Positions 44,916 to 48,866 of a stretch of DNA of 64,000 nucleotides are shown piece by piece. The position numbers and the translations under genes were made by a program. Source of the stretch: Cellulomonas sp. P24 (GTDB taxonomy: Bacteria; Actinomycetota; Actinomycetes; Actinomycetales; Cellulomonadaceae); NCBI RefSeq assembly GCF_024704385.1, contig NZ_JAJDFX010000002.1, forward strand, positions 1,550,001-1,614,000, given 5' to 3'. The first letter of the stretch is position 1. Each line of letters begins with the position of its first letter. A model generated the notes under the pieces. That model was not told the origin of the DNA. It did no database searches and was given only the letters and a program-made list of their open reading frames with translations.

Positions 44916-45337
44916 CCCTCCAGATCGAGATCGACCTCGCCGCGAGCGTCCCGCCGTACGAGCAGATCCGCAGCCAGATCGTCGCCCACGTGACTGCGGA
45001 GCGACTCCGGGTGGGCGACCGGCTCCCGACGATCCGCGCTCTCGCCGCGGACCTCGGGGTCGCCGCCGGGACAGTCGCCCGCGCCTACCGCGAGCTCGAG
45101 CAGGCCGGGGTGGTCGCCACCCGCCGCCGGTCCGGCACCGTCGTCGCGGCCGGTGCCGTCGCGGCCGACGTCCTCGTCCGCCATGCCGCGTCGACGTTCG
45201 TCGCCACCGTACGCGCCGCCGGGCTGACCGACGAGGCGGTCCTCGACCTCGTCCGTGGTGCTCTTCTCGAGCCGACGACCTCCGTCGACCGCGAGCCTCA
45301 GGACGGGAGGGACGCCGTCCAGCCCGACGCCAGGTAG
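44912..45337 (+). CDS. GntR-family transcriptional regulator, short YtrA-like
   Basis: 141 aa: winged helix with PPYEQIRSQIVAHVTAERLR, VGDRLPTIRALAADLGVAAG, TVARAYRELEQAGVV; then only a short helical C-terminus, without the usual ligand domain, as in the YtrA subfamily. Likely repressor of its own operon through the palindrome at 43814-43839. Its 3' end overlaps the convergent sigma-partner gene by 40 nt. Confidence 0.88.
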   Translation: MTLQIEIDLAASVPPYEQIRSQIVAHVTAERLRVGDRLPTIRALAADLGVAAGTVARAYRELEQAGVVATRRRSGTVVAAGAVAADVLVRHAASTFVATVRAAGLTDEAVLDLVRGALLEPTTSVDREPQDGRDAVQPDAR

Positions 45338-46386
45338 GCCGTGAAGCCCACCACGGCGGGCACGTCGACGACGTACCCGGCCTTGGGGTCCATCGCGACC
45401 TGTTCGTACCCGAGCAAGGACCCGTTCGCCGGGTCGATCAGCAGGATGCAGCGCACCGGTGCCACGAGCTCGAGGGACGTCGTGATCGCGATCGCCGGCC
45501 TGCCGGCGCGATCCGTCACCGCACCGAGCGTGACGACGCCCTTCTCGGAGGCGAGCATCTGCCACATCTCGCTGTCGACCACCCCCGGGACCACCTGCTG
45601 GTCGTGCACCCGGGGGATGTCCTGGAGCAGGCAGTCCGCGTCGGAGGAACCAGGCACGCACCCCATGCCGTCGAGAAGGGCGGTGCGAACACCGCTCGGT
45701 CCGACCGCGGCGGCGAGCTGCGCGGCGGTCGGCTGCGCCTGGGTGCCAGGCGGCAACGTCGTCGACACGACCACGCCCGTCGAGTTGCCCGCCGGGAGCC
45801 ACCCCTCGAGCCGGAGGGGCGGCGACGTCCGATCGTGCCGGACCCCTGACCCGTCCGGGGCCGTCCAGGTCTCCGACGAGACCGGCCGGATCCCGGTCGA
45901 CCGGGTCTTCCCGTTCACCGACGCCGTGAAGAACCAGTTCGCCGTGCGGACGTAGGCGACGTCCCCGGGGTGAGGGGCGTCCGGGCGCGCCCGGGCGGCC
46001 TCCGCCAGTCGCAGCAACGTCGCCTCGGCGGGCTGGCCGTCGGCCTTCCCGAACGGTGTGCTCCCGACGAGGCCGTAGCTGAGGATCGGCGGCGTCTCGG
46101 CGGTCGCCGTGTCCGGTGGTCTCCACGGAGACACGACGAGGACGACCGCGGCGGCCACCCCGACGAGTGCGACGAGTGCGGCACCGGCCCTCCGTCGAGG
46201 CCGGGCCGGACGCAGGCTCGTCCCACGGAGCACCGGACCGAGCGGGAGGGTTCCATCACGGCGCGTCGCGAGCAGCCGATCCCGGAGCGCGACAGCCTGC
46301 GTGCGGTGCTCGACCCCCTCGAGGGCCTGGACCGGAACCGGGTTGGTGCCGGCGAGCAGACGCCGTGCGAGCTCGACCTCGTCCAC
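45298..46386 (-). CDS. CU044_5270-type membrane protein paired with ECF sigma factor
   Basis: 362 aa. The cytoplasmic N-terminus (VDEVELARRLLAGTNPVPVQ) is followed by one membrane helix (about 58-78, ALVALVGVAAAVVLVVS) and a large extracytoplasmic domain ending in a pattern like ILLIDPANGSLLGYE. Proteins of this type habitually follow an ECF sigma gene and are thought to act as its anti-sigma or sensor, but I see no classical anti-sigma zinc motif. GTG 46386 has a GGGGGTGG upstream, 4 nt after the sigma stop. The family name is from memory of the pattern. Confidence 0.75.
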   Translation of the reverse strand: MDEVELARRLLAGTNPVPVQALEGVEHRTQAVALRDRLLATRRDGTLPLGPVLRGTSLRPARPRRRAGAALVALVGVAAAVVLVVSPWRPPDTATAETPPILSYGLVGSTPFGKADGQPAEATLLRLAEAARARPDAPHPGDVAYVRTANWFFTASVNGKTRSTGIRPVSSETWTAPDGSGVRHDRTSPPLRLEGWLPAGNSTGVVVSTTLPPGTQAQPTAAQLAAAVGPSGVRTALLDGMGCVPGSSDADCLLQDIPRVHDQQVVPGVVDSEMWQMLASEKGVVTLGAVTDRAGRPAIAITTSLELVAPVRCILLIDPANGSLLGYEQVAMDPKAGYVVDVPAVVGFTAYLASGWTASLPS

Positions 46387-46390
46387 GGTG

Positions 46391-46960
46391 TCACCACCCC
46401 CCGTCAGTCGTCGCGTCGTCGTCGTCGTGTCCGTCCGCGCCGCGCAGCACCGAGGTGTGCCCGCCGATCTCCAGCAACCGTTCCAGCCGGGTCCGCGCAC
46501 GGTGCAGGCGCATGGCGGCGGCGCCGACCGAGCACCCGAGCACGGTCGCGAGCGCATCCAGGTCGAGACCGTCCCAGGCCGCGAGCTGCAGGATCTCCTG
46601 GTCGCGAGGGCTGAGCCGGCGCATCGCCGCTCCGGCGACCAGCCGCTCGGCCACGACGTCAGCAGGATCGAGCTCGACGACAGGGACACCGGCGGCGAGC
46701 CCGGCACGGAGGCGCACGTCGAGTCGTGCGGACCGGAGTCGTGTGCGTTGCGAGTTCGCGAGGACGTTGCGGGCGACCACCAGGATCCACGCCTTCCGGT
46801 GCTCGTCGTCGTCGGGCACCATGTCCAACCGGTGCCATGCGACGAGGAACACCTGAGCCGCGACGTCCTCGGCGACGTGCCACTGCGTGCGTCGTGCCGC
46901 GTATCCGAGCACGACCGGGTACAGCTCGGAGAACATCGCCTCGAACTGACGCTCGTGCAC
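46391..46960 (-). CDS. ECF-type RNA polymerase sigma factor
   Basis: 189 aa: sigma-2 region FEAMFSELYPVVLGYAARRT, DVAAQVFLVAWHRLDMVPDD; sigma-4 region LSPRDQEILQLAAWDGLDLD, GCSVGAAAMRLHRARTRLER. The GTG start at 46960 has AAGGGG upstream; a 31-codon open extension is discarded. It forms an operon with the membrane partner. No autoregulated promoter recognised in the 97-nt upstream gap. Confidence 0.9.
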   Translation of the reverse strand: MHERQFEAMFSELYPVVLGYAARRTQWHVAEDVAAQVFLVAWHRLDMVPDDDEHRKAWILVVARNVLANSQRTRLRSARLDVRLRAGLAAGVPVVELDPADVVAERLVAGAAMRRLSPRDQEILQLAAWDGLDLDALATVLGCSVGAAAMRLHRARTRLERLLEIGGHTSVLRGADGHDDDDATTDGGW

Positions 46961-47057
46961 GCCCGGCCCCTTCGTCGCACCCGTGAGGAGTCTAGGCGCG
47001 CACGATGACGTCGACGTGAACGGGACGCGTGGCAGCGCGATCCGCCTCACCATCCGC

Positions 47058-47618
47058 TCAGCAGGCTGTCTGGAAGAGCGCGAGATACACCGACTCGGAG
47101 TAGCGCGGCCACCCCGAGACGTAGCTCGAGGCCCCGTACGGTGCGATGCAGATGGTCAGGCCCGCGCTCCCGGCAGGGGCGGAGCTCAGCACCGCGATCT
47201 GCGACCGGTTGTTCCGGTAGGACATGTAGGCGGTGTTCTGCAGGTTGAAGGTGCTTCCCGAGCCCGTGTACTGCCACATGCTCCCGGTGTAGTTCGCGAG
47301 GCTCCACAGGCAGAAGTACCCCGCGCCGCAGTCGCTCGACGAGAGGACGCCGGCCGCGGCCCGGGTGTACAGCACTGCTCCCCCGTCGAGAGAGAGCGTC
47401 ACCGGGGTCGACGGTGCCAGTGGTCCGGGGACGTCGGTGGCGGCTTGCGCCGGCAACGCGAGTCCGACGAGCGTGACCAGTGCCACCAACGCGACGGCGA
47501 GCTGACGCGAGACGTCACGACGCCGGTGCCCGCGTCTCCCGGTCGAGGGCGACCTCAACCGTCCGGTCCACGTCGCTGCACGACGCGCCCTCCACCCTCG
47601 AGCTGCCGAGTCGTCCAT
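47058..47618 (-). CDS. secreted peptidase-inhibitor I36-like protein
   Basis: 186 aa from the ATG at 47618. A long Arg-rich n-region precedes the hydrophobic core LAVALVALVTLVGLALPAQA, then a Cys-containing domain CGAGYFCLWSLANYTGSMWQ and NNRSQIAVLSSAPAGS, resembling the SMPI/I36 beta-gamma crystallin-like family of streptomycete metalloprotease inhibitors. Four Cys could form two disulfides. ATG 47645 and TTG 47558 are alternative starts; none has a good ribosome site. A perfect CRP-type box lies upstream. Inhibitory activity is not shown. Confidence 0.65.
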   Translation of the reverse strand: MDDSAARGWRARRAATWTGRLRSPSTGRRGHRRRDVSRQLAVALVALVTLVGLALPAQAATDVPGPLAPSTPVTLSLDGGAVLYTRAAAGVLSSSDCGAGYFCLWSLANYTGSMWQYTGSGSTFNLQNTAYMSYRNNRSQIAVLSSAPAGSAGLTICIAPYGASSYVSGWPRYSESVYLALFQTAC

Positions 47619-47688
47619 GCCGTCGAAAGCTCTGTGTGCCCCCATACCCCGTACTGTCGGCGACGCCGCGCCGATCACCCCTCACGCA

Positions 47689-47704
47689 TGTGATCTGCCT
47701 CACA
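47689..47704. promoter_or_regulatory. CRP/FNR-type operator
   Basis: TGTGATCTGCCTCACA, an exact TGTGA-N6-TCACA palindrome, extended by one further matching base pair on each side. It lies between the murB stop and the I36-like gene, 44-71 nt before its possible ATG starts, suited to activation by a cAMP-CRP-like regulator. Confidence 0.65.
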
Positions 47705-47717
47705 TCGCGACAACCAC

Positions 47718-48866
47718 TCAGAGTGCGCAACCGACCAGGACCGGCTCCGGCACGAGCTCGACGCCGAACGCTGCGCGCACGCCATCGCGCACCGTGCGGG
47801 CGAGGGCGAGGACGTCCGCCGCGGTCGCAGTCCCCCGGTTCGTGATCGCGAGCGTGTGCGAGGTCGAGAGCGCAGCCGGTCCCGGCAGCCCGAACCCGCG
47901 GGTGAACCCGGCGTGCTCGATCAGCCACGCCGCACTCGTCTTCACCAGCTCAGGTCCGGACGGGTAGCGCGGCGCCGCCGCAGGAAGGCTCGCAGCCTGC
48001 TCACGATCAAGCACGGGGTTCGTGAAGAACGACCCCGCGCTCCAGGTGTCGTGGTCGGCAGGGTCGAGCACCATCCCCTTGGTGCGGCGCAGCGCGAGCA
48101 CCGCGGTGCGCACGTCGGCGAGCGGAGCACGGCCACCCACCGCCACCCCGAGGTGGTCCGCAAGCTGCGCGTACGCGATCGGCGCCGAGAGCGAACCCGA
48201 TCGGAGCTGGAACGTCACATCGAGGACGACGTGACGCGGGGTCGGTCCCCACCGTCGCTCCCCGTCCGGACCAGTCGCATACATCGACGCCTTGAGTACC
48301 GAGGTCCGGTACCCGAACCCGAGCTCGGCGAGCGGCATCGTGCGGTGCGCACGACGCTCCCGGTCCCAGACCCGGACGAGAGCGATCGTCTGGGAGACCT
48401 CCTGGCCGTACGCCCCGACGTTCTGCACCGGCGTCGCGCCCGTCGACCCCGGGACACCGGACAGCGCCTCGAGACCGACGAGCTCCTGGTCGACCGCATA
48501 GGCGACGACGTCGTCCCACCGGGTGCCCGCCGAGACGGTGAGCGTCGTCCCGGCGCAGGCCGACGCGTCCGGGACCCTGATCGTCGTCCGGACGTCTCGA
48601 ACCACCACGCCGGGAAAACCGGAGTCGGCGACCACCAGGTTCGAGCCTCCCCCGACGACGAGGAGCGGCTCACCGGCACGGTCGGCCTCGTCGACCGCCG
48701 CGACGAGCTCCTGCTCGGAGGTGGTCTCGACGTACCGTCCGACTGGGCCACCCACCCGCAACGAGGTCAGCTCCGCGAGCGCGACGGACGCTCCGTCGTC
48801 GGTTGCGGCGTGCCGGACGGACGCGGGCGACGCGGGCGGGAGCGGCTCAGGGATCTCGCAGGTCAC
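47718..48866 (-). CDS. murB: UDP-N-acetylenolpyruvoylglucosamine reductase
   Basis: Reduces UDP-GlcNAc-enolpyruvate to UDP-MurNAc in the cytosol. It has 382 aa: SLRVGGPVGRYVETTSEQEL, FAD loop LLVVGGGSNLVV, GVPGSTGATPVQNVGAYGQEV, FGYRTSVLK, and the active-site Ser in DTWSAGSFFTNPV. This is the type I form. GTG start. In many actinobacteria it directly follows hadAB; here two transporters and a regulator stand between. Confidence 0.96.
   Translation of the reverse strand: MTCEIPEPLPPASPASVRHAATDDGASVALAELTSLRVGGPVGRYVETTSEQELVAAVDEADRAGEPLLVVGGGSNLVVADSGFPGVVVRDVRTTIRVPDASACAGTTLTVSAGTRWDDVVAYAVDQELVGLEALSGVPGSTGATPVQNVGAYGQEVSQTIALVRVWDRERRAHRTMPLAELGFGYRTSVLKASMYATGPDGERRWGPTPRHVVLDVTFQLRSGSLSAPIAYAQLADHLGVAVGGRAPLADVRTAVLALRRTKGMVLDPADHDTWSAGSFFTNPVLDREQAASLPAAAPRYPSGPELVKTSAAWLIEHAGFTRGFGLPGPAALSTSHTLAITNRGTATAADVLALARTVRDGVRAAFGVELVPEPVLVGCAL

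Follow-up and report, generated by a model that had tools for sequence, protein, structure and literature searches.

Gene Organization at the Locus

On the minus strand of the window (i.e., the whole stretch of 64 kb that was analysed), murB is followed by a palindromic box, a gene encoding an I36-domain protein, an ECF sigma factor gene and a gene of the CU044_5270 family, in this order (Table 1). The longest open frame of the I36 gene begins at 47678 and a simple gene caller gave a start at 47375; the ATG at 47645 was retained on the basis of its conservation in the sister species (G001) and of its position. Judged by eye, the encoded protein is probably secreted with a signal peptide. About 97–98 bp separate the I36 stop from the GTG start of the sigma gene, and the CU044_5270 gene begins 4 nt after the sigma stop. 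The sigma factor matches TIGR02937 over its whole length (56.9 bits, cut-off 42.9) as well as the Pfam profile of region 4 (PF08281), with no separate Pfam match to region 2. The CU044_5270 protein, which matches NF038083 and in which no Pfam domain was found, has one membrane segment predicted by eye. Scans of positions 46300–47800 returned neither a consensus sigma-70 promoter nor an intrinsic terminator.

The I36 gene would thus head an operon in which I36, the ECF sigma factor and the CU044_5270 protein are presumably co-transcribed. This sigma factor operon, which was overlooked in the initial annotation, may be the real target of the box. A target on the plus strand was set aside, as the simple gene caller finds no plus-strand gene between 45337 and 51917.

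Table 1. Coordinates of the features at the locus and of composite sites found in related genomes.
Feature	Position	Strand	Remarks
Crp/GlxR box TGTGATCTGCCTCACA	47689..47704	.	perfect TGTGAN6TCACA; centre 51.5 bp from A of ATG 47645
-35-like GTGATC	47673..47678	-	10 bp after box; by eye
-10-like GACAGT	47653..47658	-	seven bases before ATG; by eye
I36-domain protein gene	47058..47645	-	195 aa from ATG; PF03995 34.4 bits, cut-off 21.1, E 2.1e-8
ECF sigma factor gene	46391..46960	-	189 aa from GTG; 220 aa if started from ATG 47053
CU044_5270 family protein gene	45298..46386	-	NF038083 105.9 bits, cut-off 100
murB	47718..48866	-	PF02873, PF01565; gene upstream, end 13 bp before box
Asp23-side composite	L183:4989-5019		Pfam checked
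mqo-side composite (example)	L170:10028-10058
mqo-side composite (example)	L171:5574-5604

The Box in the Window and in the Genome

TGTGATCTGCCTCACA had been described as an exact CRP consensus extended by one further flanking pair, and our pattern scan agrees on both points: it has 0 mismatches to TGTGAN6TCACA, and an A at 47688 faces a T at 47705 outside the palindrome. It is the sole perfect site within the window. When up to two mismatches are tolerated, the window holds 11 matches for a shuffle mean of 14.9; these weaker matches are at chance level, without excess, and only the perfect one is therefore informative. The initial annotation had also suggested scanning the genome for this box. 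In its 4.42 Mb, we find five perfect sites (none for the reversed pattern used as a control) and 25 sites with at most one mismatch (six for the control), while the number of perfect sites expected from base composition is 0.77 for a whole genome and 0.011 for 64 kb.

Several perfect boxes lie elsewhere in the genome. Two of them (L004 and L005, positions 1501–1516 in each locus) stand directly ahead of chemotaxis receptor genes (MCPsignal, HAMP) and have in common the bases TGGACAACCGT that follow the box. A third (L001, also 1501–1516) is located between the gene of an ABC transporter ATPase and the divergent gene of a sensor kinase with a single Cache domain. At L003:1501-1660 (G000:C2, about 2132370-2132529), a perfect box is followed by GTGATT, GGACAT and a long hairpin, with no conserved gene downstream. 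The 3' stretch of this hairpin is 88% identical in G001, where the box has one mismatch, and a Crp-driven small RNA is possible there; a leaderless ORF of six codons was set aside, as it is absent from G001. Adjoining this box on the minus strand is a c-di-GMP-I-GGC riboswitch (RF03167, 65 bits for a gathering threshold of 59; L003:1294-1368).

Distribution of the Box Upstream of I36 Genes

In the sister species G001, the succession murB, box, I36 and sigma is kept, with a box (TGTGATCCAGATCACG) that shows one mismatch. Across the Cellulomonadaceae, PF03995 is present in 76 of the 221 genomes. The roughly 130 matches were collapsed by hand for repeated domains and identical copies to 106 places, with G108 added, and 104 of the 106 were counted (G075:C15:25570 and G135:C1:1551578 being left out); the frame is broken near the domain in two of the 104 genes (G071 L089 and G099 L115). 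For 21 of these 104 genes, the 480 bp that precede the I36 domain contain a perfect box; when one mismatch is allowed, the number rises to 34. The corresponding upstream windows total 48,004 positions and contain 22 perfect sites (none for the reversed pattern), against 0 perfect and four one-mismatch sites in the 419,671 positions of other DNA from the same loci.

These numbers bear on whether the perfect palindrome could have arisen by chance. About 0.8 perfect sites are expected per genome and the weaker matches of the window are at chance level, which would leave room for such an origin; yet the box occupies the same position in G001 and precedes I36 genes in other genera, and the imbalance between upstream windows and other DNA is complete for perfect sites. 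A chance origin is accordingly rejected as highly implausible. A site related to murB was rejected as well: the box lies after the murB stop, and the gene that precedes it differs by genus, being murB in the window and in G108 and other genes in Cellulomonas.

The box is associated with the sigma gene. Of the 104 family I36 genes, 41 have an ECF sigma gene behind them, and a box with no more than one mismatch is found for 26 of these 41, spread over five genera, versus eight of the 63 others (Fisher p 9e-8). The sigma profile behind this table had 11 loci as seeds, the majority of which carry the box, but rebuilding it from 15 box-less loci left the table unchanged. The link is weaker once the I36 proteins are grouped into 39 clusters (6, 6, 3 and 24; p 0.014). 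Moreover, in a quick tree, the genes with both box and sigma are clustered, with 10 changes against a mean of 16 in shuffled data and none of 500 shuffles as low. The window gene groups there with that of G001 and, with a support of 83, with those of G105, G108, G109 and G110; the box is present in G108 and G109, whereas G105 and G110, although close relatives of the window gene, lack it and keep the promoter-like bases. Against our main reading, 15 of the 41 sigma-linked genes have no box at this threshold, one of which (G035) is truncated by the end of its contig.

Outside the family, the box occurs in three of five distinct sigma-linked I36 genes (perfect in G437 and G427, with one mismatch in G315) and in four of 64 I36 genes without a sigma link, one of which shares the box of G437. 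This sample was hand-picked and comprises 70 rows, i.e., 25 of 26 loci returned (L200, located at a contig end, was omitted) plus 45 places from 40 regions, the places having been chosen mostly for short single-domain frames; as L208 and the first row of L257 are one gene, 69 distinct genes remain. At L257 (G437:C1:216118-219931), the box TGTGATCTAGATCACA is common to two divergent I36 genes, one of which is then followed by a sigma gene.

Conceivably, the I36 protein is an ordinary secreted protease inhibitor with its own Crp control, next to which the sigma gene is incidental and served by a promoter of its own. The gap between I36 and sigma, the eight box-bearing I36 genes devoid of a sigma neighbour and the Pfam family name would be compatible with this arrangement. 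Nonetheless, the box tracks the sigma neighbour, no terminator-like site was found between the two genes of the window, and the gene order is kept in both G001 and G108, so that we hold an independent inhibitor gene to be rather unlikely, and prefer an operon extending through the sigma factor.

Promoter Geometry

In 20 of the 26 sigma-linked genes with a box, the start codon lies 51.5–57.5 bp from the box centre, and in G097 it lies at 43.5 bp, about one helical turn closer. Against our main reading, five of the 26 have no start codon at 40–60 bp. Of 35 distinct box sequences, 17 have GTGA exactly 10 bp past the box. In the window, the -35-like and -10-like bases are separated by a spacer of only 14 nt, and GACAGT is conserved in G001; such bases suggest a leaderless promoter activated by Crp.

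Searching for the composite box-N10-GTGAC yields 46 occurrences in 36 of the 221 genomes, and none for the reversed pattern. Twelve of the 46 are ahead of family I36 genes, the window itself having GTGAT and thus falling outside this set. In several genera (L183, L184, L186 and L187), the composite has an ECF sigma gene on one side and an Asp23 gene on the other, and it drives the Asp23 side; L185 has the same composite on the other strand, assigned by position, the Pfam check having been made for L183. At seven Cellulomonas loci (L169–L175), it is separated from the I36 operon by a few kb, has no gene in its own direction and faces the 3' end of either mqo or a gene next to it, hence a role as an mqo promoter is wrong. 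It may make a small RNA there, for which no Rfam family matched in the loci searched. Since composites also occur at Asp23 operons and at such gene-less places, the arrangement is not specific to I36, and, judging from these sequences, box-N10-GTGAC looks like a general Crp-type promoter. In two further loci (L139:1501 and L151:963), a composite box precedes a small, apparently secreted protein (frame of 104 aa), within a few kb of I36-sigma genes that have no box, in G025 and G058.

This distribution also speaks to which sigma factor reads the promoter. ECF operons are often autoregulated, and the operon's own ECF sigma could mainly do so, with Crp just modulating its activity. The -10-like bases (GACAGT, GGATGT) are indeed poor sigma-70 matches, none having been found by the scan; however, the same composite stands before Asp23 operons and where no sigma gene is in sight, and we regard autoregulation as quite unlikely to be the main control.

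Regulator and cAMP Source

Two cNMP-binding regulators, L006 and L007, are encoded in the genome. The best PDB matches of L006 are 3h3u/3mzh/3d0s/3i54 (E about 5e-85 to 8e-85), followed by 4cyd, 4byy and 3r6s (E 6e-81 to 8e-81), all labelled as CRP/FNR-family regulators in the PDB listing; we take the former to be M. tuberculosis CRP and the latter C. glutamicum GlxR. In their alignment, L006 and 3h3u have the same recognition stretch (GASRETVNKALADFA). NCBIfam ranks CRP first for L006 and FnrL first for L007, all below cut-off, and the recognition stretch of L007 is TEESVSRV, which looks Fnr-like as far as we can judge. The CRP homologue on which the initial annotation made its proposal depend is therefore present, L006 being a close one. 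A class III cyclase has one match in the genome, and, together with L006, it provides both a reader for the box and a source of cAMP.

The presence of a second cNMP-binding regulator leaves the option that the site mainly serves L007, and another option is that Crp represses from it. The recognition stretch and the NCBIfam rank of L007, even though the latter is below cut-off, speak against the first. As to the second, Crp sites near the start site can repress, according to a study dealing with M. tuberculosis CRP (PMC4117774), which also reports activation by this regulator from sites upstream of the promoter. The box precedes the -35-like bases in the window and in the other linked loci, where activation is expected, and in this respect it resembles the activating sites described in that study and fits activation by Crp. 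Taken together, repression or a role of L007 appears decidedly improbable.

The I36 Protein and Its Predicted Fold

Modelling of the I36 protein with AlphaFold, based on 24 sequences, gave a mean pLDDT of 70.6. The model aligns with 1hdf_A with a Z of 10.4 and an rmsd of 2.5 over 90 residues, and the best Foldseek match reaches an E of only 0.0086. The domain is thus predicted to adopt a beta-gamma-crystallin fold. The type member of PF03995 is presumably SMI of Streptomyces, and SMI has a beta-gamma-crystallin fold; it is not among the 50 matches listed in either fold search, which is uninformative either way. A sequence search of the PDB for I36 relatives returned none (one irrelevant match, E 0.26). 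The window protein resembles peptidase inhibitor family I36 by its match to PF03995 over the cut-off and by its predicted fold, but differs from it by a long N-terminal part, with 49 of the 69 profile positions matched. "Protease inhibitor" is only the name of the Pfam family, and the predicted crystallin fold is no evidence for inhibition.

A Proposed cAMP-Controlled ECF Sigma Factor Operon

Altogether, the box is probably a working Crp/GlxR site for the I36-sigma operon. According to the mechanism that we propose, Crp loaded with cAMP would bind at a site centred about 51.5 bp ahead of the I36 start codon and immediately preceding a weak -35/-10 pair assigned by eye, and would activate rather than repress. 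The transcript, presumably leaderless, would begin on or close to the ATG at 47645 and extend through the probably secreted I36 protein, the ECF sigma factor and the predicted CU044_5270 membrane protein, the latter having a putative anti-sigma-like role. The cAMP (carbon) state would then set the supply of an ECF sigma module headed by a probably secreted protein resembling beta-gamma-crystallins, and a little-known signalling operon would thus receive input from carbon state. In the initial annotation, the box would link the I36 gene, taken to encode a putative secreted protease inhibitor, to carbon state through a cAMP-CRP or GlxR-like regulator. As a Crp/GlxR site for that gene, the box is credible, given that a homologue is present and that box, spacing and gene recur in related genera as well as in a few genomes from other families; the regulatory link itself appears supported at the level of the sequences, yet it would extend to the whole sigma operon.

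As in the actinobacterial regulons of M. tuberculosis CRP and C. glutamicum GlxR, the site is TGTGAN6TCACA and the regulator a close homologue; what differs is the target, an I36 – ECF sigma – CU044_5270 operon, and the near-fixed spacing from box to start codon. Likewise, the sigma gene of the window, followed after 4 nt by the gene of a protein with one apparent membrane segment, recalls ECF modules that include a membrane partner. Unlike in these modules, the partner is a CU044_5270 family protein that has no Pfam domain and is not a recognised anti-sigma factor, and the operon is headed by a secreted-looking I36 protein with a Crp box in front. In the literature searched, we found no description of this operon or of its control, no work on peptidase inhibitor family I36, on CU044_5270 or on an ECF sigma factor with I36, and no described Crp regulon in Cellulomonadaceae.

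More tentatively, the operon could encode a cAMP-gated circuit in which the I36 protein, once secreted, serves as a signal and acts from outside the membrane on its CU044_5270 counterpart, the latter in turn holding or freeing the ECF sigma factor. We consider such a circuit doubtful at this stage; if true, it would represent an ECF system equipped with a secreted sensor or ligand of its own and controlled by carbon state.

Cellulomonadaceae are a family of cellulose degraders, for which the I36-sigma operon provides a testable Crp/GlxR target; the regulator is familiar, the target unusual. The operon would connect to cAMP an ECF sigma factor whose partner is of the CU044_5270 family. It would also place proteins classified under "inhibitor I36" in a context other than protease inhibition. 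Finally, the near-fixed distance between box and start codon suggests a rule for spotting other Crp-activated promoters in these genomes.
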